From IMG/VR virus record IMGVR_UViG_3300035670_010947, positions 1-20,557 of that record: a DNA stretch of 20,557 nt, one strand, 5' to 3'. The DNA is from a virus. Positions 1 to 16,703 of this stretch are shown piece by piece. Position 1 is the stretch's first letter, and the number at the start of each line of letters is the position of its first letter. The notes under the pieces were generated by a model. The model saw nothing but the letters and a program-made list of their open reading frames with translations. It had not been told where the DNA came from and made no database searches. The position numbers were made by a program, and so were the translations under genes.

Positions 1-48
1 ATATCCATCTAAATATCCATCTACAACATAGCCATCTATTAGTGCATC
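1..48 (-). repeat. DGY tripeptide cluster at the left edge
   Basis: The last 16 visible codons of the left-hand gene (999-1014) contain three DGY triplets: DGYVVDGYLDGY. At DNA level this is an imperfect repeat of atatccatc / atagccatc separated by 3-6 bases. The array is cut by the window edge and may continue. The same tripeptide is tandem in the giant gene at 5146-5181. Confidence 0.6.
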
Positions 49-3042
49 AACATGAACTCCAGATATCCCTGATGAAAATCTAACCCTGCCTTTAGCTATA
101 TCATTATTTAATCCAACATCTTCACAGCCAACCAAAGTACCGTCAGAATATCGCATTGCTGGATAACCAGCAGCAGTTAAGCAAGTTCCAGACTTAGCCT
201 TAACAAAGCTATTGTATAAGTCTATAGAACATCCAGTTATTGAACCTGGAGGCAATGGAACTTTTATATTGGTATATTCAAAGTCACCAGGGTGAGGAAC
301 GCCTGGAGCGGTTAGGATATTGCCACTTGGTAGATATAGATCTCCAGGGACATAAGTTTGATTCTTATAAACAGGGGTGCAGTCTACTTCTGGTGTACAT
401 GCAGGCTCTACACATTCACAAGCGTTAGTCTGCTCCTCTATAAAGCTAGATCCAACATATCTCTTTAAATCACAAAAAGACAAGAAGTTATCTTGAAATG
501 GTGCTTCGATGAAGTTTATTTCAAAGTCAAAGCTTGCAAATGGTAGTCTTAATAAGCTTTTATTATCTGCATATAGATTGACCCTAGAACCGCTGGTAAT
601 TACCACATCAAATGATGAACTTGATTGTAAATCTGTTTCTACTCCTTCGAGGTCTGTTAAAGTTACTGTAACAGTAACTCCATCTACATCTATAGACTTT
701 GAAGCAACTAAGTAATCACCAACATTTGGATCCGTAGTTGTGGTTATAGAAAGTTTATCACCAACGCTTATTGCTAATGCATCTTTGTAATCAGCTACGA
801 CAAAAGATATTGAGGTCGCATCTATAACAGAGCTGGTAGATACAGTATCTAATATAGTGGGATAATCAGATGTAGATAGAATATTCTCAAGATGTAGAGT
901 TAAAACTCTAAACTCTGTTGGAGATGAGAAGTTGACATATCCATCAACTGCATCTTCCATTATTTCTACGTCTATTCCGTCTACCGTTCCATCATTATTA
1001 AGGTCAGATTTAATAAAGTCTATAATATTTAAATCACCATTTAATATCTTGCGCTCTGTGGACGAAGAGTTAATGGTATTGCCAAGGATAGGAACCATTA
1101 AGGATAGGTCGTTTGAAGATATCTTTCCGTCAGAATTAAGATCTCCTAGCTTCTGAATGCTGCATTCTACCCTGACAATTCTATACATTGCATTACATGT
1201 GCAGCTTGTATCTGGGACTATAACTCTGTTTACTAAGTTTGAAGATAAAATATCATTTCCTGGTTCAATTATCTGTATGGTATTTGCCCCAATCAATCCA
1301 GGCTTATCAAACACGCCTTCGTAAGTAGATGCAGCGCGAGTGTTGTTATCTTCAATTTTTGCCAATATCATTGGCACAGTATCTTCTCTTAGGTTATCTA
1401 ATTCTTCTTGGTTTACTACAGAGATTGAAGGAACGTCTTGTATTCTGGTAAAGACGAAGTTGTTAGTCCTTGGGTGAACTCCAGCCTCAGAGAACTCCTC
1501 TCTTTGTGATAGTATTAAATAATATGCAGAACCTTCAGATACAGTCCTGAGGCTAATATCCTTTTCAAAGTATGAAACCTGAGTATTTCCTACATATTCT
1601 CTAAACTTTGGAATTGTGACTGCAACTCCAGAATCGGTATATGCTGTACCATCAACAACTTGAACGGTGTCTGAATGTATCTGGAACCAAAGTGATGAAC
1701 CTGAGTCGTTAACGAATCTCTTGGTAATTGGATCATATTCTACATATTTTGACTGTTGTTTCCCGAATTGCTCTATAGTAGTTTGAGGAGTTCCGTCTTC
1801 GATTTTTTTAGTTACTTTATCCCAGCCTTTTTCCAAGATAACAGTTCCAACTCTATTATCACCTCTTCTGCTTACCAATATTGCATAATACTTTCCTTTT
1901 TCTATAGAAGGCTCAATATTTGGATCTGCAATTAAAGTTCCGGCAAAGTTGAATGATACCAGTTGCGGTGTTTCAGTTAGTTTATATCCCATAGATTCTA
2001 GATCTGCTTGGCCAAAAGATATTTCAACTAGCGGAGTTATTTCAGGATCATAATCTATTAAATCATTTGGTACAACACCGCCTGGTGTAGAAACATTTGA
2101 TGCAAGCTCATGAATTCCTATGACTAAGTTTCCGGAGAAATCAAGCTGCTCTGCAAGTGGTAAGCTTTCATCACGGGAGACGGACAACAAGAGATCAACC
2201 CTCTGTAAGTTATCCATATTAGACAAGAATTTTTGCCCATATGAAATAGAGGTTGCTCCAAGCTTTTCAAACTCAAGCTTCTCTCGTCCTTCCAGCTCAA
2301 TGTACATATCATTAATGTTGTTGTTTGCACCAAGTGCTAGCTCAATTTCATAAAGTATATCGTGAGATAAGTCTGAAGATATAAAATTATTTAGGTCATA
2401 GTTTGGAGACTCGACTTGAGAGTTTACCCTTGTGGCAGGATAAACAGACATCTGTGGAGCTTCTCTAAGAATCATATATCCAGAATCGCCAATGAGATTT
2501 TCGCTCTCGGCAGCGGAAACAACCTTCGTTTGTCCCGTACCACCGGAAAAATGATTAAAGATGATTGCAATGACTGAAGTAAAGAAGTGTTCGGTAACTC
2601 TTTTCTCGTTCTCATAAAACTCAACAAATTCTGCAACTAACTCGCCCTGAGAATTGGCTCCATCAAAAGCTCTACCAATTACCATTACTTTTGTTCTTAG
2701 CCTTCCCATTACATTGGAATCTATAAGCTCCAATTCAATTCTGTTTCCATAAACAGGATCAGATGGCTGAAGATCTAGAAATATTGGTTTTCCATCATAG
2801 CGACCCAATAGAATGTCATTCTCTGAAGGATTAGATCCATACTTACCTGGATTTCTAGTGTCCAATAGATTTTTTTGGTCAAATGGTGAACTTATAATTA
2901 TCCCGCTACCATGGAAATCTACAACAAGATTTGATGCTAGAGCATTATTATTAATCTGCTCAGTATCTAAATCTTTTTCAGTTACTCTATGTCCATCGTA
3001 AAAGTTAACTCTTTTGCTGTTAATACGCTCTTTCTTAGCCAT
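1..3042 (-). CDS. Putative tail fibre / receptor-binding protein with dockerin motif (3' end beyond window)
   Basis: The frame opens at ATG 3042-3040, 6 bases after GGAG (3052-3049), and stays open for 1014 codons to the left edge, so the C-terminus is missing. The N-terminus (residues 12-29, with NFYDG then KDLDTEQ) resembles the 'FYDG...DL..EQ' opening common in phage virion-attached proteins; this is recalled resemblance, not a search result. Residues about 380-400 (GKYYAILVSRRG) and 500-520 (SAYYLILSQRE) look like two copies of one beta module. Residues 632-700 hold two dockerin-type calcium loops. Residues 735-815 form a beta-rich module resembling segments of the upstream giant protein. 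Residues 875-888 are cysteine-rich (CECVEPACTPEVDC), and the visible end runs into DGY repeats. Its place after the gp25-J-giant genes matches the fibre position of P2-like tails. The role as fibre or adhesin is inferred from position and modularity; it could also be a baseplate appendage. Confidence 0.85.
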   Translation of the reverse strand, partial: MAKKERINSKRVNFYDGHRVTEKDLDTEQINNNALASNLVVDFHGSGIIISSPFDQKNLLDTRNPGKYGSNPSENDILLGRYDGKPIFLDLQPSDPVYGNRIELELIDSNVMGRLRTKVMVIGRAFDGANSQGELVAEFVEFYENEKRVTEHFFTSVIAIIFNHFSGGTGQTKVVSAAESENLIGDSGYMILREAPQMSVYPATRVNSQVESPNYDLNNFISSDLSHDILYEIELALGANNNINDMYIELEGREKLEFEKLGATSISYGQKFLSNMDNLQRVDLLLSVSRDESLPLAEQLDFSGNLVIGIHELASNVSTPGGVVPNDLIDYDPEITPLVEISFGQADLESMGYKLTETPQLVSFNFAGTLIADPNIEPSIEKGKYYAILVSRRGDNRVGTVILEKGWDKVTKKIEDGTPQTTIEQFGKQQSKYVEYDPITKRFVNDSGSSLWFQIHSDTVQVVDGTAYTDSGVAVTIPKFREYVGNTQVSYFEKDISLRTVSEGSAYYLILSQREEFSEAGVHPRTNNFVFTRIQDVPSISVVNQEELDNLREDTVPMILAKIEDNNTRAASTYEGVFDKPGLIGANTIQIIEPGNDILSSNLVNRVIVPDTSCTCNAMYRIVRVECSIQKLGDLNSDGKISSNDLSLMVPILGNTINSSSTERKILNGDLNIIDFIKSDLNNDGTVDGIDVEIMEDAVDGYVNFSSPTEFRVLTLHLENILSTSDYPTILDTVSTSSVIDATSISFVVADYKDALAISVGDKLSITTTTDPNVGDYLVASKSIDVDGVTVTVTLTDLEGVETDLQSSSSFDVVITSGSRVNLYADNKSLLRLPFASFDFEINFIEAPFQDNFLSFCDLKRYVGSSFIEEQTNACECVEPACTPEVDCTPVYKNQTYVPGDLYLPSGNILTAPGVPHPGDFEYTNIKVPLPPGSITGCSIDLYNSFVKAKSGTCLTAAGYPAMRYSDGTLVGCEDVGLNNDIAKGRVRFSSGISGVHVDALIDGYVVDGYLDGY
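379..420 (-). other. Cysteine cluster in the fibre-like protein
   Basis: Codons 875-888 read CECVEPACTPEVDC, four cysteines in 14 residues, and more cysteines follow near the visible C-terminal part (TGCSID, GTCLTA, GCEDVG). The spacing could suit a metal site or disulfides formed after release from the host, but it matches no binding motif I can name. Confidence 0.45.
943..1149 (-). other. Dockerin type I-like domain (two Ca-binding loops) in the fibre-like gene
   Basis: Residues 632-700 of the left-hand gene contain two EF-hand-like dockerin loops. Loop 1 is DLNSDGKISSND (residues 634-645) and loop 2 is DLNNDGTVDGID (680-691). Both fit the dockerin pattern D-x-N-x-D-G-x-[IV]-[SND]-x-x-D, with D/N/D/(S or D)/D at loop positions 1, 3, 5, 9 and 12 and a glycine at 6. 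Loop starts are 46 residues apart, somewhat longer than usual for cellulosomal dockerins. Type I dockerins bind cohesins in a calcium-dependent way in cellulosomes. No cohesin was recognised in this window, so the partner is unknown. The motif match is read directly; binding activity is inference. Confidence 0.85.
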
Positions 3043-3081: not shown

Positions 3082-6000
3082 TTAGCATTTTGTCTTAGTG
3101 AATTTTACCAAAGCATTTGTATGTGCTGGTTTTAATCTATTAACTAATTCTACTATTAAATCTTCTATTTGACCATCATTAATATCAATTACTTTATCAA
3201 AATTATCTATAACTTCAATATCGAAATTATAAATTCCTCTTTCTGGATCCATCACTGTTGCAAAGCGATCTACCTTTTCCATGTCGGCATCAAAGTCCAA
3301 TAAAAATGTTGTGGCATTATCTTGTACAACTGGGAATACTGTATTTAAATTCTCTGAATAGTTAATATCTACAGCATTGCCAGCGGGATCTGTAACTATG
3401 CTTCTCATTATTTTACTGAATCTAATATTATCCATTCTGGCTCTACAGTTTTTATTTCCAAATATATCTGAGCCTATAGATATAAGCTTAAATTCATCTG
3501 ACAGCGGTATCTTGTATTCTTTGTTTTTAAACTGTCCATCCTTCTGGATATACTGACCATAATAATATCCTGTACCATAAGTTAATCCTGTGCCGTATAA
3601 AATATATCCACCCTCATCACCATCGCAGAATATTCTCATTGTATCATACAGTGAATTCGTTTTATATAAGCAAAGTATTCTATGCCAGGTATTCTTTTTC
3701 CAATCAATATCAATTGATACTATATTATCTATGCCACCTGCAGTCATCAAAAATACAAGCTGATTTCTATCATTCTTATAGATAGAGAATCTATCTCCAG
3801 AAGAACCTAGTGGAATATAAGTTATGACTACATCAGTATTTTGTGCTGGTAGTGATTCTGCTAAGAAAATCTTTGTTCCATCAGGTGACAATCTTGCGCC
3901 TATGGAAAAATCTTTATCAGAACCTGTGCCACCTTCTAATACTCCTGATATTCCACTTCTAGATATTTCATCAAATATAATTGTCTGAGCCTCATTAGGT
4001 GTGTAAAGATCTTTAAATTCCTTGGTTTTCTTTAATAACTTTACGCTGAGGATCTTGTTTGCAGGATTATTAAGTTCTATAACTGTTGAGCTTTTAGAAG
4101 TTACCCTCTCCATCTTTCCGGAAAATATATCTAGATAATATCTAAACTCTTTATCATCAAAGGTATCAACAACTGGGCTAACCCATAGCTCAATACTTCC
4201 TTCGTTTCTTCTAAACTTTCCATCATTATTTAACAGTAACAGACCTTTTCCATTTGTAAAGTTTCCGGAACTCTTAAATAGTTCATTTACGCTCTTATTG
4301 CTCTTTGGGAATTCTTCTGCATTTCGATAGAAATCTGCCTCGTTAAATAGAGGACCGCCACCAGCCTTATGAACTTCGTAGAAAGTTCTAGTTGCCTCAT
4401 CTAAAGTATAACCCCAATTTAACATTTGAGAAATAAATAAGTTTGGATTATTAACAACTTCTAGTAGTGCCTCTTGCTTATCTCGTGATAGTGTATATGA
4501 TATATTATTTACTTGATCTAAGAATTTTGTATTTCTTAATCTTCTTGACTGCATTTTTATTGGGTTATTAAAAGGAATCAAGGTTAGAGTTTGGCTATCT
4601 GCACAGGCTGGATTTGATTTGTTATATTCATCCGTTATGCTTCTTGTTCCTGCAGTATATGCCTCAGTTACTCTAGTATCATTTGACATCTCTGATATTA
4701 TTCTAAACTGATCTATGATTCCGCCAAACTGCTCTTCCTCTTCAAAGTTTGAGCCAACGTATAGCTTATGACCAACCTCAGGAAGATTCAATCTTAGATA
4801 AGCTGGGAACTCTATATCATAAAAACCAGGATGTAATTCAAATGGATATGTGCCTGATGAACCGAATGTTGTCAAGATCATATGATCATTAACATAATCA
4901 AACACTTCACATCTAGAACCACCATTATTAGATACAGAGAGCAGGTCTTTTTCTTTTAATGAAATGACGGCTGTATCCATATAATCTGGGTCTACAACTA
5001 AAAGCCTACCAGTTATTTTTGTAACTGTTTTAAATAAGTTTGATGTATCATATGATCCATTTTTATTTATGGAGAAGAATTCGTAAGCATCTCCACTAAC
5101 AGTGGTTCCATGTATGGTGATAAAGCTTTCCTTTAGCAATGCTCCATAGCCATCATATCCATCATAGCCGTCATAGCCATCGTACTTGCAAAACTGAACG
5201 TTATCAGAATCAAATGTTAGAGTTAAAAATCTTCCTAGATTTTGCTTATATACATTTCCTTCTTCCGAGGAAACGCTATGATACTTGTTTGAGTTATCTA
5301 ATAGAATTTCAAAATCAAAGTAATAACCCAAACCCTCTTTTGGCTCTGGATTTATTGGCTGGATAGCAGTCTTATCAACTATAATTCTTCTTATTTTTAT
5401 ATCTTCAAATGACACAGGCTCTGCATGAACATTCTTGATAACACTCTTACCGCTAAAGTTAGATTCATTATTTAGGTAGGAAGAACTGGATAATGATAAT
5501 TTTGACTTTACATTTTCTAGATTTAGCCCATAAGTCCTTATATGGATATCTACATCTGTTGGCTGTACAGTTGCTACAGTTTTGCAAAGGTTATTCTTAC
5601 CAACAAACTCAATGATCCTGGTGTCTAGGTTTGCCCTAAATTTTGGATTTATAACATTGGTACCTTTTAGAATATTTACTTCACCAAACTCTATAGTATA
5701 AAATACTCCAGCCATTTCTTCTATAGAGCCATTTGGTCTGGTTCTAAATATTGCTAGTCTAGAGTTTCTCAAGTCTGTAAGAATAGGAGCTATAACTCCG
5801 GCGGTGGGAGGAAATTTAAATACTATATCAGATGCAGAGGTATTGAAAGATATAATTTCAACATTATCTCCTCTACCCAGAGTCACATTATTTGAGTCTA
5901 TTACGCTCTTAATTATATATTCTTGATTTACTAAGTCTGGTGCATTCTCTGAGGATTCAAATATTAAACTTCTACCAATCATATCCTGAGTGAATACTGC

Positions 6001-9000
6001 CTGATATGATGAGAAGATTGCATTTCCAGCTGTTACAGTTCCATCAGTATACTGAGGGCAGAAAACAATATCTTTTGCCAAGAAGTCATATAGTACTTCT
6101 TTGCTGATATCTCTAAATTTATCATTTAATCTGACAGGAATCTTGCCGCCGAATTTGAATATATTTGGTGCTTCCTGTCCATCAATAAACAAATGCATTT
6201 CATCTTTGTTATTGATTGTGTTCAACTTCCAGCTTGCAGCTATGTGGTGTAAGTCTCCGGGTCTAAAGTGCTTAATATTTGTGGCTAGATTCAACATCCC
6301 AGCCTGACCAAGCCTCTTTAGACTATCATCAAATATTCTAAAGTTTAAGAAGCCTTTGCCATCCTTAAAGATAGAGAAGCGTCTATCACCTTCTGACACA
6401 CCAGTATCAACTAGATATCGGCGCCTGTCAGAAGTTATAAACATCTCATCTACGCCATAAAAGTCTGCATATCCTTCATAGCCATATTCATCATAGCTAA
6501 GCTCTCCAGCACCATCTCTACCATCTACAGTGAATGAAAAGTCAACCCTTGAGTCAGTGCTAATAATAGTATCATTTGATTCAAGATATTTAGTCCCAGA
6601 CACTTCTGAGGCAGAATAGAATATTAAATCAATATCTGCAACGTTTGGAATATATGTGCTATGATATGAGTAGATATCAGAAATAGAATTATCAAATAAA
6701 TATAAGCAAATATTGGGGCCTTCGAATGGCTGATATCCATCGAAGGTTGGATTCTCAAACTGTCCAAATGGAGTTCTTTCTACGAAGAAATTATCTATAT
6801 AGATAGATACTCTTTTAGTTTCATTATTTTTAACTAGCCTATATTCGTGAAACTCTCCATCGTTCCAGATGTAAGGAATATATTCTATTATTGAATTGTT
6901 TGTTCCATCAACTACCAAGACTATAGGCTGAGAATCAACGGTAAGACCTAGAGCTAATTTTACTGAAAGATCTGCATCAGTTAATGAGATTGGAACGATT
7001 CCTGTAAAGTTACCATTAATTAATCCAGAAAAATATCCGATTAAAGATCCGGCTATACTAGGATCATATTGAGAAACTTTCATTGATACTACATATTCCA
7101 AATCTCCATTTGGACATGGATTGCTAGTATAGAGTAAGTTTCCTAAAACCTTATCCTCTTCAGTACAGTCGAAGTAATCAACCGATGGTCCAAGCCTATA
7201 AATTCCGTCAGATATGCTTGTATTGAAATCTCCAAACTTTACCCACTTCCCTGATTGCGTTTCTCTACCACCAATGACAACGTTAATAAGGTCAGTTTCT
7301 GCTTCATCAATCTTTGACCATCCGAAATCTTCTAGTAATTGATTTCCGCAATATCTGAAGGTTGCCTCACAAGCTATTCCTGTATCACAATTGTTTGTTG
7401 ATTCTTCTCTGTATGATCTTGAAACAGATGAGAACTCACCATCTGTGGTTATATTTCCACTTAAATTATAATTGGTATTTATATACTCATAGGTATTGGT
7501 CCAGCCACCTGATGATACCACAACATCTGATGGAACTTGCGTAGTGCGATTGTATCTAACTCTATAAATCCATTGTCCGATCTCCTCGCTCAATGGAGAC
7601 TTGCACAACTCATCAAACCAAATAAATATTCCACCATTAGATTCGGCTCCAGGAGGCTCCCCTACTGGAGATTTTGGATAGTCGCCTCTATTTATAGAAA
7701 ATGGTACGCGACTTGGACTCCAGCCTTCACCACCAATATGAATATCTTTTGGTGTAAATTTATTATATATTGTTCCATTAATTCTAGATATATCTATAGT
7801 TGATAGAGCATATTTTGTAAATACTCCAATTGCATGACCTTTGAAGTTTCTATCTATAATATCTAAGTCCAAGCTTAAGTTGCAAGATAGAATTGCATCA
7901 GTATAAAACATAGAGGTAGTTACAGTATCTATTTTAATATCTACTATGTTCTCAATGGGCCTTCTATTTATTTCAAACTTATGATAGTTGCTCCAGTTTA
8001 TAACGAACTCTTTTTGAAAGTCTAAAGCCAAAATAGACTTTGATGGATTATATTTAGATAGTATTTGGGCCGTCTTTGCAAATAGCTTGACCTTACCAAT
8101 AGGCTCTGAATTGTTTATTGCAATTCTTCCCTTGGTTGCGAGGTCAGTATTGTTTATTCCAAATTTCTTAACCTCAACTTTTAATATGTCATCAGGTATG
8201 GATCTTGTAAATAGTTTTCCTGAAGAATTATAAAAACCAGTTACCTGATAAAATATTCCTAGTTCATCAACCAAGATAAATGATTCTGGTGTTTGGTCTA
8301 TTATATTTGATGTATTTTTAAAAGTAAATAGGCTAAAGGCTGCATCTAGCTCTACCCTTATTTTAAGATCATTAAACTTTTCCAAAGTAGAAACATTATT
8401 TACTACATAACATTTGCATGGCTTGACATAGTATGGTGGCTCAAAGTTTGATAATAAATCACTCTTTGTATCACTATCTTCAATCTCAAACTCAAAGCCT
8501 TCAACATGCTTTAGGTTTAGAGATAATCCTACTGTTCTATTTCCGTCAGGTACTATTAGGCTTCCGGCATTGTATGCATTTGCAGGAGGAGATAATTCTG
8601 TTGGGAATGGTCCGCCAACAAAAGAACCTGGGCCTAACTCACCAACAACGAAGTAGGATTCGCTAACAGCTTCATCACCACATGGTACTTCTAATTCTAC
8701 AGAATTTACTGCTTTTGTTAATTCGTTATAGTTTGCTCCAATCATATCAACTTTAAAAACTGCGGATGTTTTGGAATTAACGGTTCTATCTAAATTTTCC
8801 TGTTCTTTATATATTCCAAAATATCCTACATCTAGTCCTTGAATTTTTGATGAATCTGATCTATAGTTAAATAGTAACAAACTACGTCCTGTATAATCAG
8901 ATCCACCAGCAAGGCTTATGTTTTTAATTGGCATAATATCCCAATTATTTTCAGCACTAAATGGATTGCTTCCGCTTCTAAGATAGAATGATTCTTCGCC

Positions 9001-12000
9001 AATATTATCTATATTAAAAGTCAGGGTTGCGTCATTATTAATTCCAGCCCATTCTGGACGCACCCATGCTTCAAGGGTCCCTTCATCTAATGAGATTGAA
9101 GATATAGATGGAATATTAACCACTACATCATCATTAAACATTAAACCTTCGCCAAATCGACCCTCTATGAAGTTGAGAACGCCCTTGTAATCTATATTAC
9201 CTGGTGATAAATAATCCCGTCCTAATATCCAATTTCCAAAGATTAGCTCTTGAATGTTGGGATTTATCTTGGTGAAAGACTTTACTAATTCCTTGTAAGA
9301 TGGTAAAGTTGGTCCCTTTGGAAATGATTGTAGTACACCCTTAATGGCATCGCGATATAATTCTCTATCAGTATTGACACCAAAGCTTCTAAAGAATGGA
9401 ATGTTTGTAAGGCTTCCAAAATTGACCCTCAGGGCCTCTCTGAGTGCGCCGTACCTATAGGTGACGAAATACTGCTCGCCCTCCTCTATCGCATCATTAA
9501 TGCTCCAATCTATTGTGTTATCACCGTACTCATACCATACAACTAGATTGTCTGCAACATATGTATAGTCCAAGAAGATAAATCCAAAACGATAGTCTAC
9601 AGCAATAGCAGTACCTATTTCTGGCATCTCAGAAGTTAAATATGTTATTTCAAACATTTCTCCAGCTGAGAATCCAGAATCACCAGGAATATTTATGGTC
9701 ATCTTACCATCAGCTATGGTAACGCTTGCTCTAACAACTATCTTAGAAACACCTACGGGATCTAACTTTGGCCTACTTACTGTTGCATCATTTTCTGCTG
9801 GTACCTCAACTCTTATCCTGGACAGATTATTATTTACATTGATAATCTTAAATCTATCGCCATTCTTATCTATTAAGTAATCGTTATCTGTATCTACACC
9901 TGCTAGGCTGACTGGCGTAGAGATATCAACTCTGGCCACACCAGGAGAGATTATATCAACATCTGCAATCTGAAGCTTGTCTAGTTTGGATATATTTAAA
10001 TCATCATCAAATGCAACTGTATCTCTCAGGACTGTTTTGGCATTATAAAATGTTGTAGCTGTGGCATCAAATATTGTTATAATAAAATCTGAACCGTTTG
10101 TATTTAGTCTTTTTCTCTGTCTCTTTTTAAAATCAATAACGTTATCTTCGAAGTATACAGAAGTAACATCGTAAAGGTTTCTTCCACCATTTTTAACTGT
10201 TAATTGCAACTCTTCTTTAGATGCTTCTGGAAGTCGGTCACCTTGATAGCTTGAATTTAAGTTTGCGCCCTTTAGATCAGAAATTTTAAATATACTGTTT
10301 ATACTGGTAATTTTATTTGGAACTAAGGCTGTATAATCTTCTAGAACGTCACAGACTATCTGCCTATTTCCATCAGGATCTTGCGCATCAGTTACTCCAT
10401 CATACATTCTTAATGAGTTTTCAAGATCAAGTATTGAGACTGTATTGTTATCATTTGATAGCTTTTGATATATGATTTCTGCAGTAGATATATCATCTGG
10501 GCTATTCTTCTTCTTTGCGGCACCTGATGCAGTTATGATATTTTTATATCTTGTATCAACATCTCCATAGCTATACTTTGCAGTACCTACAACTACCTCT
10601 TGATCTTTTCTTATGGCTACATAGATTATTCCATGATCATAATCTACTGTGTAGTCTCCAACCTTTCTCAGTCTAGATATATTTTCTTCAAACTTGGTTC
10701 CCTTTGAATCTACAAACGCTCTAGATATTCCACCGTCCGAAGTTTTGAATAGAGAAGGAGTAAGATTAATTGATTCGAACCATTTTTCATTTTTAAAGAT
10801 GTTATCATTACTTAGTTCTAGGGAAGAGTTTGTTATCATTCCAATGCTATCAAGGTTATTATTTAGAATTCTTTCCTTATCTAAATTAATAACAAATCCC
10901 TTTGTTCCAATAATTACTTCGGAATTTACTGTTGGTGGTATAACATCATTATTGCCGATACTTGCAGAGGTGATTAAGTTATTTGAATCTGGATCTCCAA
11001 AATACTGTATGTTAGCATCTAATATGGTTGCGGATCCATTTACCCCTTTTATCTCTCTGAAAAAGTAGTTTGTAGAATTTTGAGAGATAAGTTCTGCAGG
11101 AATTCCTGGTGAGAAAATAATGCTGTTATTTGAAGCATTTGATATAATTTTGGCTCTAAAAGCTGGGACAATAAACTCACCAACTACAGCCAATTCTTCA
11201 TTATCTATATTTAAGAATATAGCTTCTTCATCTTTTTCAGTTTTAACTTCGGGAGATCTATTCCCTGAAAAAGCAATCTCGGTTGCTGTATGAAATAATG
11301 GATTGTAAACTTCTCCAGTAGTTTGATTCAATATTCTAAATACATCAGTGATTGGAGCGTTTGCAGTTTTTATTCTAAATGATTGGCTCAATCTATTTTC
11401 AACAAATTCAGGCATGACCTCAATATGGCTTTTTGCAAGATAATCTATATCTTTTGCAAATACTTCTTCATATTGAATGGTTATTTCAGCTTCATCATTT
11501 GAAAGCTCTCTGTTTGGAGTGGCTACGAAATCTTGATTATATATTGAATAATCTAAATCTCTAGAGAATTCTTTTCTGTAATAGTATGTCGCAACAACGT
11601 TATCCTGCCCAGTTCCCTCTCCAACCTTTTGAGCGCCAGCAACATATACCTCTCCAGTCTCATAATTTATGGAGTACTCTCCAAGCATGGATGGTAAGTT
11701 GCTAATATTGAATTTAATTTCTTTCAGAAATGCTTGTGGCCTTTCTTCATAATTTTCTGCCACTTTGAATGTGACACCATTTAAGGATGGTATATCATTA
11801 GTTGCAGTAACTATTGGTGCCTGGCCAAGAAAAAATCTGCTAGAATTAGTTGGTATTGGCTCATTTGTAGATTGTTCAACTCTAGATACCAAAACCTGAT
11901 CTTCTAATATATTCCTGCCTGTATTTTTATAAAGGTAAGATACAACAAAGGTATCTACAATAGATGGCCTTGGAATGTTTCCGAACTCAGATAATAGTAT

Positions 12001-12918
12001 TTGGTTATCTTTTAATTGTGTAAACTTAAATGCAAAATCTTGATCATAGAAATTATCTTTTATGGAATATTTGTATTTCTCTATATTATATGATGTTCCA
12101 AGATTACCATTGCAGTCAGCTTCTTCGCCATAAGCTACATATGTTATTGATAGCAGCTTGATTACTTTTCTATTCTTTAGCGTTATTAAGAATCCATCGA
12201 AGCTATTGGATTCAGAATCAATATTGATTACCTCATTCTCTACCGCCACCTGCTGCAAAGAAATAGGGTAATATGGCACAGATCCACTTCTTGGCAGGGG
12301 GTTATTTGAAGTGTATTCCAAGACCTCTGTTTTTGGAGATACTCCAGTTGCACTTCTAGATACTCTAATTATCTCATATGCATTTTCATTAGCAAGCCTA
12401 TCGGTAGGTCCTGCAGTCCTTGTTCTTAACTCATCAACAACTTCTTCAGATATGTAATTATTGCTAAGAACTTCTCCTATTGTTTTTTGTGCAGTATAAA
12501 ATTCTTCAGCTTGAGCAGATAATATATTTTTTAAGTTCGTATTTTCTAGTTGAAAGAGATCTGGAACAAGCTCAAACATTCTATCTCTAAATGGATTGAT
12601 ATCATCAATTCCCACAAAGAATAGCTCTCTAGAAACAGAGTCGTATGGTATAACTTCTCCCTTTAGAGAGGAGAATAGGACCTCTTGCGTGTCAACAAAT
12701 TTTAGAAGATAATAATTACCAGCAACTTGTGGTCTGGTTTTTACAACAGCTACCTTACCCTCTATACTAACACCAATAACTTCAAGATCTGATACAGCCC
12801 CATTTAAAGATGAAACTTCAAAGTTATCAATGGATATCAGGGATGATAGATCTTGAGTAAAGGTGATCTTTAACTCTGTAGTAGATGGTATAGAAAAAGC
12901 GACTGGTCTTAGAGACAT
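3082..12918 (-). CDS. Giant multidomain baseplate/tail protein (gpI-position, LamG-rich)
   Basis: A 3278-residue protein, ATG 12918 to TAA 3084-3082, with AAGG 6 bases before the start. It directly follows Baseplate J, where P2-like phages encode tail protein gpI. Residues about 110-170 (LVPDLFQLEN onward) form a helical segment like a gpI N-terminus. The C-terminus has RLKPAHTNALVKF, resembling the PAHT ending of gpI/DUF2313-type tail proteins. Between them lie mainly beta modules. About 410-460, 753-793 and 1100-1137 share a 'Y.v.Y..G.iyv...Y.Y' pattern. Residue 520 onward carries a module also present in the J protein. LamG/concanavalin-like segments lie near 1244-1340 (GTLEAWVRPEW), 1943-2076, 2120-2250 (HHIAASWKL, MHLFIDGQ) and 2885-3170 (GSIELWVSP). 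Residues 2580-2591 are (DGY)4. LamG folds often bind glycans, so host-surface contact is plausible but inferred. The gpI assignment rests on order plus end motifs; it could instead be a large fibre. Confidence 0.9.
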   Translation of the reverse strand: MSLRPVAFSIPSTTELKITFTQDLSSLISIDNFEVSSLNGAVSDLEVIGVSIEGKVAVVKTRPQVAGNYYLLKFVDTQEVLFSSLKGEVIPYDSVSRELFFVGIDDINPFRDRMFELVPDLFQLENTNLKNILSAQAEEFYTAQKTIGEVLSNNYISEEVVDELRTRTAGPTDRLANENAYEIIRVSRSATGVSPKTEVLEYTSNNPLPRSGSVPYYPISLQQVAVENEVINIDSESNSFDGFLITLKNRKVIKLLSITYVAYGEEADCNGNLGTSYNIEKYKYSIKDNFYDQDFAFKFTQLKDNQILLSEFGNIPRPSIVDTFVVSYLYKNTGRNILEDQVLVSRVEQSTNEPIPTNSSRFFLGQAPIVTATNDIPSLNGVTFKVAENYEERPQAFLKEIKFNISNLPSMLGEYSINYETGEVYVAGAQKVGEGTGQDNVVATYYYRKEFSRDLDYSIYNQDFVATPNRELSNDEAEITIQYEEVFAKDIDYLAKSHIEVMPEFVENRLSQSFRIKTANAPITDVFRILNQTTGEVYNPLFHTATEIAFSGNRSPEVKTEKDEEAIFLNIDNEELAVVGEFIVPAFRAKIISNASNNSIIFSPGIPAELISQNSTNYFFREIKGVNGSATILDANIQYFGDPDSNNLITSASIGNNDVIPPTVNSEVIIGTKGFVINLDKERILNNNLDSIGMITNSSLELSNDNIFKNEKWFESINLTPSLFKTSDGGISRAFVDSKGTKFEENISRLRKVGDYTVDYDHGIIYVAIRKDQEVVVGTAKYSYGDVDTRYKNIITASGAAKKKNSPDDISTAEIIYQKLSNDNNTVSILDLENSLRMYDGVTDAQDPDGNRQIVCDVLEDYTALVPNKITSINSIFKISDLKGANLNSSYQGDRLPEASKEELQLTVKNGGRNLYDVTSVYFEDNVIDFKKRQRKRLNTNGSDFIITIFDATATTFYNAKTVLRDTVAFDDDLNISKLDKLQIADVDIISPGVARVDISTPVSLAGVDTDNDYLIDKNGDRFKIINVNNNLSRIRVEVPAENDATVSRPKLDPVGVSKIVVRASVTIADGKMTINIPGDSGFSAGEMFEITYLTSEMPEIGTAIAVDYRFGFIFLDYTYVADNLVVWYEYGDNTIDWSINDAIEEGEQYFVTYRYGALREALRVNFGSLTNIPFFRSFGVNTDRELYRDAIKGVLQSFPKGPTLPSYKELVKSFTKINPNIQELIFGNWILGRDYLSPGNIDYKGVLNFIEGRFGEGLMFNDDVVVNIPSISSISLDEGTLEAWVRPEWAGINNDATLTFNIDNIGEESFYLRSGSNPFSAENNWDIMPIKNISLAGGSDYTGRSLLLFNYRSDSSKIQGLDVGYFGIYKEQENLDRTVNSKTSAVFKVDMIGANYNELTKAVNSVELEVPCGDEAVSESYFVVGELGPGSFVGGPFPTELSPPANAYNAGSLIVPDGNRTVGLSLNLKHVEGFEFEIEDSDTKSDLLSNFEPPYYVKPCKCYVVNNVSTLEKFNDLKIRVELDAAFSLFTFKNTSNIIDQTPESFILVDELGIFYQVTGFYNSSGKLFTRSIPDDILKVEVKKFGINNTDLATKGRIAINNSEPIGKVKLFAKTAQILSKYNPSKSILALDFQKEFVINWSNYHKFEINRRPIENIVDIKIDTVTTSMFYTDAILSCNLSLDLDIIDRNFKGHAIGVFTKYALSTIDISRINGTIYNKFTPKDIHIGGEGWSPSRVPFSINRGDYPKSPVGEPPGAESNGGIFIWFDELCKSPLSEEIGQWIYRVRYNRTTQVPSDVVVSSGGWTNTYEYINTNYNLSGNITTDGEFSSVSRSYREESTNNCDTGIACEATFRYCGNQLLEDFGWSKIDEAETDLINVVIGGRETQSGKWVKFGDFNTSISDGIYRLGPSVDYFDCTEEDKVLGNLLYTSNPCPNGDLEYVVSMKVSQYDPSIAGSLIGYFSGLINGNFTGIVPISLTDADLSVKLALGLTVDSQPIVLVVDGTNNSIIEYIPYIWNDGEFHEYRLVKNNETKRVSIYIDNFFVERTPFGQFENPTFDGYQPFEGPNICLYLFDNSISDIYSYHSTYIPNVADIDLIFYSASEVSGTKYLESNDTIISTDSRVDFSFTVDGRDGAGELSYDEYGYEGYADFYGVDEMFITSDRRRYLVDTGVSEGDRRFSIFKDGKGFLNFRIFDDSLKRLGQAGMLNLATNIKHFRPGDLHHIAASWKLNTINNKDEMHLFIDGQEAPNIFKFGGKIPVRLNDKFRDISKEVLYDFLAKDIVFCPQYTDGTVTAGNAIFSSYQAVFTQDMIGRSLIFESSENAPDLVNQEYIIKSVIDSNNVTLGRGDNVEIISFNTSASDIVFKFPPTAGVIAPILTDLRNSRLAIFRTRPNGSIEEMAGVFYTIEFGEVNILKGTNVINPKFRANLDTRIIEFVGKNNLCKTVATVQPTDVDIHIRTYGLNLENVKSKLSLSSSSYLNNESNFSGKSVIKNVHAEPVSFEDIKIRRIIVDKTAIQPINPEPKEGLGYYFDFEILLDNSNKYHSVSSEEGNVYKQNLGRFLTLTFDSDNVQFCKYDGYDGYDGYDGYGALLKESFITIHGTTVSGDAYEFFSINKNGSYDTSNLFKTVTKITGRLLVVDPDYMDTAVISLKEKDLLSVSNNGGSRCEVFDYVNDHMILTTFGSSGTYPFELHPGFYDIEFPAYLRLNLPEVGHKLYVGSNFEEEEQFGGIIDQFRIISEMSNDTRVTEAYTAGTRSITDEYNKSNPACADSQTLTLIPFNNPIKMQSRRLRNTKFLDQVNNISYTLSRDKQEALLEVVNNPNLFISQMLNWGYTLDEATRTFYEVHKAGGGPLFNEADFYRNAEEFPKSNKSVNELFKSSGNFTNGKGLLLLNNDGKFRRNEGSIELWVSPVVDTFDDKEFRYYLDIFSGKMERVTSKSSTVIELNNPANKILSVKLLKKTKEFKDLYTPNEAQTIIFDEISRSGISGVLEGGTGSDKDFSIGARLSPDGTKIFLAESLPAQNTDVVITYIPLGSSGDRFSIYKNDRNQLVFLMTAGGIDNIVSIDIDWKKNTWHRILCLYKTNSLYDTMRIFCDGDEGGYILYGTGLTYGTGYYYGQYIQKDGQFKNKEYKIPLSDEFKLISIGSDIFGNKNCRARMDNIRFSKIMRSIVTDPAGNAVDINYSENLNTVFPVVQDNATTFLLDFDADMEKVDRFATVMDPERGIYNFDIEVIDNFDKVIDINDGQIEDLIVELVNRLKPAHTNALVKFTKTKC
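5146..5181 (-). repeat. Tandem 9-bp repeat encoding (DGY)4
   Basis: On the plus strand four 9-base units lie head to tail: atagccatc, atatccatc, atagccgtc, atagccatc. They encode DGYDGYDGYDGY (residues 2580-2591 of the giant protein), followed by Gly-Ala. The units differ only at wobble positions, so the peptide repeat is exact while the DNA repeat is slightly diverged. Confidence 0.9.
11265..11361 (-). repeat. Shared 'NxTTGExY' beta module, copy in the giant protein
   Basis: Starting at residue 520 of the giant protein: NAPITDVFRILNQTTGEVY, then a beta-rich continuation to about residue 551. It aligns by eye with two segments of the neighbouring J protein (HTPVLNVSRVTNKTTGEIY and NPPISNIVSVKNSNGVELY). 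The common core is [AP]P[IV]-x-[ND]-[IV]-x-x-[IV]-x-N-x-x-x-G-x-x-Y with one gap. The function is unknown. Confidence 0.5.
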
Positions 12919-12924
12919 GTTTTA

Positions 12925-12928
12925 CCTT
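12925..12928 (-). promoter_or_regulatory. Ribosome binding site of the giant gene, overlapping the J stop codon
   Basis: The sequence TAAGGTAAAACATG holds the J stop (TAA, 12929-12927), the AAGG site and, 6 bases later, the giant gene's ATG (12918-12916). The overlap of stop and ribosome binding site favours coupled translation. Confidence 0.7.
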
Positions 12929-15900
12929 AGGTGATTCTAAAATCTTTTCTAGATACGTTTGTAAATGTAATAGTTCCTGCAACTATTGATTGATTATCTA
13001 AAGCCTTTATATAGTTCCTTCTTCCTATCGTTCCGGATTCGTTAAACAAAGATATGTTTGCAGAATCAACGCCACGTACTGTGGTAACTACATTTATTAT
13101 ATCTGAATAATCTATTGTTGTACCAAGTGCCGCACTATTTAATAGGTTAACTACTGCATTGGAAACATTTTCAATTACAGTACTTGATTCTGTAGTAAAG
13201 TCATCGTTTACAATTATCTCTCCTGATACGTCTACAGATAACAATGGAGCTTCCTTAACCAGAACGTCTGCCGTTATACATCTTACGTTTTCTAGACCAG
13301 AAGTAACATCTATAATCAATTTATTTAAATTATATCTAACTGTAATTCTTTCTCCCTCTACTGGTGCCGTAAAACTGTAATCAGAATAATAAGAAAACCC
13401 TGTACCTGGTTGATTCTGTGATTCTATCTTTAATGATCCAGATAGTGATCCAGCTTGTGTTCTAAAGCCTGATGAAACTGAGACTTTGCTTAAACGAGAG
13501 AATCTTTTATCTGTAATTACTCTATTATTTCCTGGGAAATATAACTCTTCAAAATCGTTGGAGTTGTAAATTAAAAGAGAAACTCTTATAATCTCTCCGC
13601 TAGAAAATGATAAGGAATTGTTATAGCTAGTGGATGGAAGTATGAATTCTGTATTTGATAAAGAAGAATCTATATCTCCGACGCCTAAAGCATATAAATT
13701 ATTGCTTAGCTTTTGCCCTATTAAATCTGGAATTACCTCTGGATTGTCTACTGAATAAATATAGTCTACTCTTGCAATTCCAACTGTATCTGGAATTGTA
13801 TTTATGCCCAATGCAGACTTGATATCTCCAGATAGTTTAAACTTTAATCCATCTGTGCTTACACCAGCGGTTACATTTATATCTAGCCTGGTTAGAGTTT
13901 CTCCAGCAATCTTGATTTTTCCAGGGCGTGTTGTGCCAGAAGTGGTTAAAGATAATCTGGTTGGACCTAACTTTTGTGTACCAGTTATATTTTGATTTTC
14001 ATCATACTTATAAAATACTGGTTGATTGCTGTCAGTTATAGTGGAAAGATTGGCAGTAAATAATTTATTTGATAGTGAAGATCCGCTAATTGGAAATAGT
14101 GTAAAGCTGGAGTTTGGCATTAGGGTGATGATTTCCGCAATGTAATCAACATATACATCATCTCCAGTAAGCTCAAGTGCTTCAACATCCTCTAGTATTG
14201 AATTGCTATCCAAAATATCACGAGATGGTAAAGATATAACATTGTTAGCGAATGCACCATCAGTATTTGATATATCATACATTTCAATTTTATTATATGT
14301 TACAGTAACAGTTGAAGACATATCTACAGGACTATCTGTTGGTAATACTATAGTTCTGGCATAATATGATCCATCAGCATTGATAGTATTATATAGCTCT
14401 ACACCATTGCTATTCTTAACCGATACTATGTTGCTAATTGGAGGATTTGAAGAACTTATTATAATTCCTGGAACTAAAACATCTTCATTGTTTTCTACGT
14501 TCTGAATTGTTCCGGTTGTATTTACTGCAGTATATACGGAAATTACTCTACTTATATTATTGCTAACTGTAACTTGATACTCTAGGCCATCCTCAGTTGC
14601 TTCTACCTTAGATACTTCGCCTGAGATGCCATTGCTAGTTCCCCAGTCTATAGAGTTACTTACATTCTTATCTACAATTTGTGGCCCAGAAAATTCTCCA
14701 TTATAATCAATATATTTGTCATAATACAATCTCCAGATATAATTTACTGCAAGGACATCTGCTGGAGAGGGTAGTGTTTTTCCAGATATAACAATTTCAC
14801 CAGTAGAATTCAAGCCAGTTGCAGTACTTATATTCTGAGAATCTATAACATAAATTTCACCAGTTGTCTTGTTGGTGACTCTGCTTACATTTAGAACTGG
14901 AGTATGGTTTAGTTTTAGAATACTTTTATCTGCAGAGCTTATTTTAGAATTTTCTGCAATTATTGATATATCTTGATATACTTCGCTTATCTTCTTGGAA
15001 CCAGAGAATCTAAGTGGATCAACGCTATTTAAACCACTTTTGGTTATTGATTCTAGTCTAACCTTCTTTTCATTGGCTATAAATCTTATCTTATCAAATC
15101 CAAATGGACTTCCACCAGTTTCTGGATTGGTATCTTTTATTAGCTCATAGTTTCCACTTACATTACCATCGGCGTCCACTGTCTTTCCAACTAAAACACC
15201 AGAGCTACTACCTGTTACAGAAATAATTGCATCAACAGGCTGCTGAGGAACTTCTCCAGAATTAAATGCTTTTATTCTTCTCTCTTCTGATGTTAGAGTG
15301 GGATCTAAGCTTCCTTGCCCTAGAATATAATCATTTCTTTCGTCAGCCGCAGAACCGCTTCCAGACTTATCAGTATAGACATAAGACTCAACCACTTCTT
15401 GCAATTGCTTTCCGAGTATATATAAGTCTACCTTACCGCCAGTACCAGACTGTAAAATTCTAAAGCTACCATCATTAACTTGTATTGTCTCAGTACCATC
15501 TCTAAGCATCAGAGTATTTCCAGGTTCAATAACTATAGCGTCAGTAACTCCAGAGATGCTCAATGCAGCGTTTCTATATCCGAATGCTGTTCCGGTATTA
15601 GAGCCGCTAAAAACAGAAAAAACTCTTGCCCTAAATGCTGAATCGCTTTCTGAGTTAGCTCCACCATTAAAGGCGTTTAGATTTGTTACCCTGACAGATT
15701 CTCTCAGGGTGTGGCCAATTATTTGAAAGTTAGATATATTTCCTGAAGAGCCTGTATTCATTGCCCTCACTGGTATTTCTATTGCATATGGATCTGTAAT
15801 GCCTGCTAAGTTTAGACCATTTCTTAATCTATTGGCTGTTGCTGAAAATCTATTTTTCTCTGCAACTGACATTACATATGTTCCAATAGTTTTATATTGC

Positions 15901-16244
15901 AAACCAGAGCTAGACTCTACGTTTGTACCTTCAGGAATTGAAACGTCTGTGGATATATCAGAAATGGTAAATACTACTACACCATTAGCATTAGATCCAG
16001 TTCTTCTGGATATGCCGAAATTATTTGCCCATCTATCTAGGTCTCTACCGGTAGCTGACTCTGGAGATTGTTTTTCAGAAACAATTAGCATAGAGCTATG
16101 AAGCTTTTGGATTTGGTCTGCCTGAACATCAATAAATAAATCTCTAGCTACAGTTCCAGGCTTGGTATCTAAATTTGGTTGAGTTAATCGTAATCTTTCT
16201 ATTATCGAATTTACAATTTCACTAAAGGATCTAAATATTGCCAT
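12927..16244 (-). CDS. Baseplate J-like protein (gpJ / T4 gp6-type), enlarged
   Basis: A 1105-residue protein, ATG 16244, TAA 12929-12927. The first 250 residues carry Baseplate J hallmarks: FSEIVNSIIERLR at the start, the TGRDLDRWANNFGI region (65-78), a beta section with IPEGTNV (103-109), and NGGANSESDSAFRARV (193-208), the conserved 'GG.d.Es...fR.R' element. The C-terminal ~100 residues (IENVSNAVVNLLNSAALG, YSDIINVVTTVRGVDSANI) match the usual J ending. J proteins form the wedge ring of contractile baseplates with gp25. The protein is much longer than P2 gpJ (about 300 residues) or T4 gp6 (about 660). The extra length is a beta-rich insert at roughly 310-1010 containing at least two copies of a repeated module (447-508 and 600-658). 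It sits 9 bases after gp25 and 8 bases before the giant gene, so the three baseplate genes are tightly linked. Family assignment is firm; the insert's role is unknown. Confidence 0.93.
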   Translation of the reverse strand: MAIFRSFSEIVNSIIERLRLTQPNLDTKPGTVARDLFIDVQADQIQKLHSSMLIVSEKQSPESATGRDLDRWANNFGISRRTGSNANGVVVFTISDISTDVSIPEGTNVESSSGLQYKTIGTYVMSVAEKNRFSATANRLRNGLNLAGITDPYAIEIPVRAMNTGSSGNISNFQIIGHTLRESVRVTNLNAFNGGANSESDSAFRARVFSVFSGSNTGTAFGYRNAALSISGVTDAIVIEPGNTLMLRDGTETIQVNDGSFRILQSGTGGKVDLYILGKQLQEVVESYVYTDKSGSGSAADERNDYILGQGSLDPTLTSEERRIKAFNSGEVPQQPVDAIISVTGSSSGVLVGKTVDADGNVSGNYELIKDTNPETGGSPFGFDKIRFIANEKKVRLESITKSGLNSVDPLRFSGSKKISEVYQDISIIAENSKISSADKSILKLNHTPVLNVSRVTNKTTGEIYVIDSQNISTATGLNSTGEIVISGKTLPSPADVLAVNYIWRLYYDKYIDYNGEFSGPQIVDKNVSNSIDWGTSNGISGEVSKVEATEDGLEYQVTVSNNISRVISVYTAVNTTGTIQNVENNEDVLVPGIIISSSNPPISNIVSVKNSNGVELYNTINADGSYYARTIVLPTDSPVDMSSTVTVTYNKIEMYDISNTDGAFANNVISLPSRDILDSNSILEDVEALELTGDDVYVDYIAEIITLMPNSSFTLFPISGSSLSNKLFTANLSTITDSNQPVFYKYDENQNITGTQKLGPTRLSLTTSGTTRPGKIKIAGETLTRLDINVTAGVSTDGLKFKLSGDIKSALGINTIPDTVGIARVDYIYSVDNPEVIPDLIGQKLSNNLYALGVGDIDSSLSNTEFILPSTSYNNSLSFSSGEIIRVSLLIYNSNDFEELYFPGNNRVITDKRFSRLSKVSVSSGFRTQAGSLSGSLKIESQNQPGTGFSYYSDYSFTAPVEGERITVRYNLNKLIIDVTSGLENVRCITADVLVKEAPLLSVDVSGEIIVNDDFTTESSTVIENVSNAVVNLLNSAALGTTIDYSDIINVVTTVRGVDSANISLFNESGTIGRRNYIKALDNQSIVAGTITFTNVSRKDFRIT
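14272..14447 (-). repeat. Shared beta module, J protein copy B
   Basis: Residues 600-658 of the J protein begin NPPISNIVSVKNSNGVELY and end TVTVTYNKIEMYD. They align with copy A (447-508), which ends VLAVNYIWRLYYD, in both the opening motif and the closing 'V.V.Y......YD' strand, suggesting an internal duplication. Confidence 0.55.
14720..14906 (-). repeat. Shared beta module, J protein copy A
   Basis: Residues 447-508 of the J protein begin HTPVLNVSRVTNKTTGEIY and end DVLAVNYIWRLYYD. Its opening is very like the giant protein segment at 11265-11361 (NAPITDVFRILNQTTGEVY). The module is inside the long insert that ordinary J proteins lack. Confidence 0.55.
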
Positions 16245-16250
16245 GATTTT

Positions 16251-16254
16251 TCCT
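16251..16254 (-). promoter_or_regulatory. Ribosome binding site of the J gene, touching the gp25 stop
   Basis: The sequence GCATAAGGAAAAATCATG contains the gp25 stop TAA (16256-16254), AGGA sharing its last base, and the J start ATG after 6 bases. The layout is the same as at the J/giant junction. Confidence 0.7.
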
Positions 16255-16703
16255 TATGCTATTCTAACGGTTACAGACTCTGTAACTGTAGATAGTGCGC
16301 CAGTTTGTACAGAAATAAATATACTGTATAGCCTTGGATCAATTGTATCTCTTTCTGCCGAAATATTTAAAATACTTACGATCCTTTCTGATGGAGATAG
16401 GAATTGTCTTTGTGATTGGCTTTTTTGTAGAGCCATAATTTTTCTAATTGCATCTTCTACTGATGCCTTCATATCTATTTCTAATAGATCTTTATCTACT
16501 GAATAACCTATATCTAAAGCCCCAACATTGCTACCATAACTTTGATGAAATTTATTTTCACCAAGCTTAGTCAGCATGATTTTTACTATATCTTGCCTTA
16601 GCTTATAGTTTTCAGTGACGATAGCTAGGCTACCATCTGTTGCTATTTTGATATCCCCACCCTCTATTTTTAAATCAAAAGACATAGAATTATCCAGCCT
16701 CAT
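16254..16703 (-). CDS. Baseplate wedge protein, gp25/gpW (lysozyme-like fold) family
   Basis: A 149-residue protein, within the usual size of T4 gp25 and P2 gpW. It shows the family layout: a short beta start (DIKIATDGSLAIVT, 17-30), then LRQDIVKIMLTKLGENKF (35-52), then the YGSNVGALDIG element (56-66) equivalent to the conserved '..T..GE....P.yG..l...l', a helix (about 71-92), and closing strands ending TVTESVTVRIA. This protein joins baseplate wedges around the hub and contacts the first sheath ring in contractile tails. It lies directly upstream of J, the standard order. The start is uncertain. ATG 16703 has no Shine-Dalgarno sequence upstream. An internal ATG at 16685 (residue 7, MSFDLKI) has a weak GGA 7 bases before it and would also give a complete domain. 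Confidence 0.92.
   Translation of the reverse strand: MRLDNSMSFDLKIEGGDIKIATDGSLAIVTENYKLRQDIVKIMLTKLGENKFHQSYGSNVGALDIGYSVDKDLLEIDMKASVEDAIRKIMALQKSQSQRQFLSPSERIVSILNISAERDTIDPRLYSIFISVQTGALSTVTESVTVRIA

Follow-up and report, generated by a model that had tools for sequence, protein, structure and literature searches.

Baseplate genes of the window

The stretch of DNA analyzed here (the window) is the whole of virus record IMGVR_UViG_3300035670_010947, which comprises 20,557 bases. Four of its genes form the setting of the dockerin-type module described below.

1..3042, minus strand: putative baseplate arm or wedge protein with a dockerin (1014 aa, cut by the contig end; orthologues of about 860-1770 aa)
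3082..12918, minus strand: giant 3278-aa protein, probable baseplate wedge, with a LamG-like domain near its C-terminus
12927..16244, minus strand: baseplate J-like wedge protein, 1105 aa (PF04865, E 4.1e-25; phrog_6, E 9.8e-41)
16254..16703, minus strand: sheath-initiator-like baseplate protein, 149 aa (PF10934 below its cut-off; phrog_2669 and phrog_120)

The dockerin-bearing ORF runs from 3042 to 1 and is still open at the contig end, and thus its gene is cut. It directly follows the gene of the giant protein in gene order, and the J-like wedge and sheath-initiator genes (PHROGs) that adjoin it make up a contractile-tail baseplate cluster. The earlier note had described the product as a phage fibre-like protein; the tail setting is borne out, but the protein is better termed a baseplate-proximal structural protein than a fibre.

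The full-length AlphaFold2 model (pLDDT 83.4, pTM 0.80) has its best PDB matches among baseplate chains of Staphylococcus phage 812 (VIA Z 13.3, rmsd 2.9, 156 residues). The matched chain was named as the 1152-aa DUF4815 protein ORF65 (9euf, 9eui, and 9euj) through a sequence search with two pieces annotated in KJ206559. The fold is shared over residues 204-567 of the window protein, whereas the dockerin falls outside the aligned part. Gene order is also similar in the two phages, with a J-like gene and a large wedge protein gene followed by ORF65 or the window protein; ORF65 lies downstream of the large protein deposited as TmpF. However, the window's upstream wedge protein is three times longer, with 3278 aa against the 1019 aa of TmpF at a similar place. 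No DUF4815 Pfam match was found in the window protein or 43 orthologues, and profile searches built on the family and on the giant protein found nothing of note in phage 812 and no match in the examined region of Bacillus phage G. Kinship with phage 812 therefore rests on fold and gene order, and the window protein is described as similar to the DUF4815 proteins rather than as a member. These likenesses, drawn in part from a predicted model, support the view that it may work like ORF65.

Several other features were observed around these genes. DGY tripeptide repeats occur at the C-terminal end of the dockerin-bearing ORF (DGYVVDGYLDGY, window 1-40) and in the giant protein at about residues 2580-2593 (YDGYDGYDGYDGYG), and both are present in relatives. 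In one related contig, a LAGLIDADG endonuclease gene (L008:19650-20381) sits between the giant-protein and dockerin-protein genes. Glycosyltransferase genes (Pfam Glycos_transf_1 and relatives) lie downstream of the baseplate gene in four others, as a run of several in L002 (14599-22218) and at L024:11400-13673, L052:8154-10439, and L059:8009-9124.

A dockerin-type double calcium loop

The following features were assigned within the window protein; the helices and strands are those of the AlphaFold2 models.

1342..2433, minus strand: region with a fold like that of DUF4815 baseplate protein ORF65 of Staphylococcus phage 812, residues 204-567 (VIA Z 13.3)
1150..1185, minus strand: beta-strand entering the module, residues 620-631
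943..1149, minus strand: dockerin-type module, residues 632-700 (PF00404, PDB dockerin profile matches, and predicted fold)
1108..1143, minus strand: calcium loop 1, DLNSDGKISSND, residues 634-645 (sequence)
1087..1116, minus strand: helix after loop 1, residues 643-652
1006..1065, minus strand: linker with two short helices (residues 660-667 and 673-679), the site of about 90 extra residues in 7 orthologues
970..1005, minus strand: calcium loop 2, DLNNDGTVDGID, residues 680-691 (sequence)
946..978, minus strand: helix after loop 2, residues 689-699
883..915, minus strand: beta-strand leaving the module, residues 710-720
595..858, minus strand: second inserted beta-rich domain, residues 729-816 (model; best fold match phage T5 pb9, Z 7.8)

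Both loops carry D or N at positions 1, 3, and 5 and D at position 12. Their side-chain ligand positions 1, 3, 5, 9, and 12 read D, N, D, S, and D in loop 1 and D, N, D, D, and D in loop 2, and the earlier observation that both loops match the calcium-ligand positions of type I dockerins was correct. Pfam PF00404 (Dockerin_1) matches residues 632-696 of the ORF with an E value of 3.7e-5 and 24.3 bits (cut-off, 22.9) and is the only Pfam family above cut-off in the 1014-aa protein; a six-frame search of the window scored Dockerin_1 at 27.7 bits. The sequence profile of the region retrieved solved dockerins, the best chain with an E value of 1.8e-13 and others with 1e-10 to 1e-5, and the whole-protein profile reached the same PDB entries.

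The module was also modeled separately with AlphaFold2 (residues 604-724, 36 sequences), with a mean pLDDT of 89.4 and a pTM of 0.77, and a helix is predicted behind each loop. The top 22 Foldseek matches of this model are all dockerin entries, with modest E values (best, 4.7e-3). VIA-align superposed it on the double dockerin 8x39 with Z 8.5 (rmsd 2.2, 66 residues) and on the Clostridium thermocellum xylanase dockerin entries 2ccl and 1ohz with Z 7.4 and 6.6, respectively. The predicted helices at residues 643-652 and 689-699 favor a dockerin fold over isolated EF-hand-like loops, and the claim of a canonical dockerin at 943-1149 is upheld by the Pfam score above cut-off, the PDB dockerin profiles, and the predicted fold. 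The region is a dockerin-type double calcium loop, for which calcium binding is predicted from sequence and model.

Like type I dockerins (PF00404), the module thus has two calcium loops of 12 residues, with a helix behind each. However, it differs from them in several respects. Classical dockerins lie near the end of an enzyme, whereas the window module lies inside another domain, held in the full-length model between the long strands 620-631 and 710-720. In addition, 34 residues separate its two loops, compared with about 24 in classical type I dockerins.

A fixed module across a phage lineage

A first scan retrieved one relative, 62% identical and encoded on a 178-kb contig, in which the module occupies the same position. 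The use of the giant protein as a lead yielded further contigs, including some of 236-395 kb. Successive alignments produced 49 loci, which were deduplicated to 45 distinct proteins; one (L074) is a fragment, and the other 44 are full length or nearly so. The orthologues are about 25-62% identical and come from IMG/VR contigs of up to 428 kb. The bacteriophage group with the dockerin-bearing baseplate protein is large, uncultured, and mostly jumbo. A tblastn search of the INPHARED phages with the window protein and two distant orthologues gave no match, and the only hits of a dockerin consensus in that collection were five short fecal contigs without annotation.

Each of the 44 distinct orthologues has the two calcium loops at this site; the count comes from one MAFFT alignment of kin sequences, which do not represent 44 independent events. 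D634, D645, and D691 are each invariant (44/44), D680 is kept in 43 and D638 in 42, residue 684 is D or N throughout, and all ten side-chain ligand positions are retained in 39 of the 44. PF00404 is matched at E ≤ 0.01 in 27 of 43 orthologues, some of these below the curated cut-off.

The starts of the two loops are 46-64 residues apart in 37 orthologues and 136-156 apart in seven (L060, L062, L063, L067, L070, L071, and L072), in which about 90 extra beta-looking residues split the dockerin while both loops are retained. Such a segment between the loops, which is a further difference from type I dockerins, suits a structural insert. In the window group, the dockerin is succeeded by the second inserted domain (residues 729-816), which the distant orthologues L023, L024, and L025 lack. 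That this domain and the loop-separating segment are the same was considered and was not supported by hhalign (probability, 0.1%).

That the loops are chance acidic segments, or bacterial DNA misattached to a phage contig, is extremely improbable. EF-hand-like loops are short and common, and the Pfam score in the window is barely over the cut-off; nevertheless, 44 orthologues, some with as little as about 25% identity, have the loops at the same site, a dockerin fold is predicted, and the contigs reach 428 kb with surrounding baseplate genes. Conservation across the orthologues refutes the reading of chance loops.

Conservation was measured by Jensen-Shannon scores with sequence weights. The ligand columns scored 0.73, compared with a mean of 0.48 for the module and 0.46 for the whole protein (ligand versus module columns, permutation p about 5e-5). 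Positions 10, 11, 17, 18, and 22 of each loop, the cohesin-facing ones of classical type I dockerins, had a mean of 0.34, lower than nearly every random sample of the module columns outside the ligands. The calcium ligands are thus among the most conserved residues of the protein and the cohesin-facing positions among the least, which indicates that selection keeps the calcium sites, while the cohesin face is unkept or diversified. In this lack of conservation the phage module also departs from type I dockerins.

Dockerin-like phage proteins are not new to databases. BFVD and UniProt hold uncultured-phage proteins named automatically "Dockerin type 1" or "Dockerin domain-containing," such as A0A8S5NQH0 and A0A6J5RS54, for which a dockerin fold is predicted. 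The latter, a protein of 1332 aa, could be aligned over 241 columns and is possibly related to the long-spacing group. Gene 40 of VvAW1 resembles dockerin proteins (PMC3558961), and the "dockerin" of PMC5967307 proved to be a carbohydrate-binding module match. In the open-access papers searched, neither a study of these dockerin-named proteins nor an account of a dockerin in a phage baseplate was found.

Cohesin partners, hosts, and the role of the module

The cohesin family PF00963 was not matched at E ≤ 1 in 23 contigs of the lineage (6 + 17), eight of them longer than 300 kb and none rated complete, while the positive control, Methanosarcina acetivorans, was matched. A diverged cohesin would escape PF00963, as HMMs miss such sequences. 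The contigs also do not show several dockerin proteins per genome, as expected of a cellulosome-type system; in 22 of the 23, any match lies within the baseplate protein, and the sole contig with a further dockerin match elsewhere (G023) has a weak one (E 0.0067). A cohesin-dockerin system is known outside cellulosomes in the non-cellulolytic ANME archaea, in which cohesins and dockerins occur in the same genome (PMC9012536), whereas no cohesin was found in the phage contigs described here.

The cohesin search of the phage contigs that the earlier note had called for therefore came back empty, and its proposal that the fibre is fastened to a cohesin-like phage partner is not supported. A broader form of this proposal is that the module is a plug-in joint of the virion, docking a diverged or unrelated phage partner such as a receptor-binding protein on a baseplate arm. 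In favor of such a joint, the module is lost in none of the 44 orthologues, and the protein that contains it is similar to the DUF4815 protein ORF65 of phage 812, of which solved baseplates contain many copies (81 chains in 15 entries). However, the classical interface positions are unconserved, the extra segment parts the two loops in seven orthologues, and no cohesin was matched across the 23 contigs, and we regard this role as unlikely.

A possible lead on the host came from a scan of 84,980 genomes, in which one relative was found. It is 49% identical, includes the module, and is encoded on a 4.3-kb contig of a Zixiibacteriota metagenome-assembled genome (MAG). This MAG has 4 cohesin and 14 dockerin matches, and cohesins were found in 89 of 98 Zixiibacteriota genomes, compared with 1 of 14 control genomes. 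The phage gene is present in 1 of 132 genomes of the phylum. In tetranucleotide composition, the contig is closer to the phages (correlation, 0.81-0.91) than to other parts of the MAG (0.65-0.73), as is also usual for a phage, and the contig is possibly misbinned. Zixiibacteriota is thus a lead on the host, resting on one 4.3-kb contig, and not a host assignment. No papers naming Zixibacteria together with cohesin and dockerin were found in the literature search.

Because the only orthologue from cellular genomes belongs to a cohesin-rich phylum, the suggestion that the module grips host-surface cohesins, so that the baseplate would have an additional adsorption contact, is retained. Variation at the cohesin-facing positions is what a host-specific face would show. 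This role nevertheless hangs on a single, possibly misbinned contig from 1 of 132 genomes, and the module is internal and pinned by strands, with no terminal tether; it appears quite improbable. Taken together, a working calcium-dependent docking joint, whether to host-surface cohesins or to a diverged phage partner with swappable tail parts, is possible but doubtful.

The dockerin is probably a calcium-stabilized structural insert in a baseplate-proximal protein of these contractile-tailed, mostly jumbo phages. The strand-pinned insertion, the conserved ligands, the unconserved cohesin face, and the tolerated extra segment fit best with the calcium-stabilized structural knot that had been listed as a third possible role. 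Two Ca2+ ions would fold and rigidify the insert, which may serve as a calcium-dependent structural spacer or contact pad in a baseplate arm or wedge. It is predicted to pack on its own protein or on a neighboring virion protein and would not act as a cellulosome-style plug for a cohesin. Against a structural insert, a host- or partner-specific docking domain would likewise combine a conserved fold with a variable recognition face, and an insert that served stability alone might be expected to have disappeared from one lineage or another, whereas no loss was seen in the 44 orthologues. The remaining probability goes to roles other than a structural insert, a phage joint, or a host grip.

To our knowledge, previous work on dockerins has dealt almost entirely with their pairing with cohesins. 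In the uncultured, mostly jumbo phages described here, a dockerin fold is built into a baseplate protein throughout the lineage, with no detectable phage cohesin. Should the module be a docking domain, it would represent a new way for phages to attach or to assemble their tails, and if it docks to host cohesins, the phage would exploit the host's own scaffold system as a receptor. If the module is structural, it would clearly exemplify the use of a dockerin as a calcium-stabilized building block, and tail assembly or stability in these phages would be predicted to depend on calcium.
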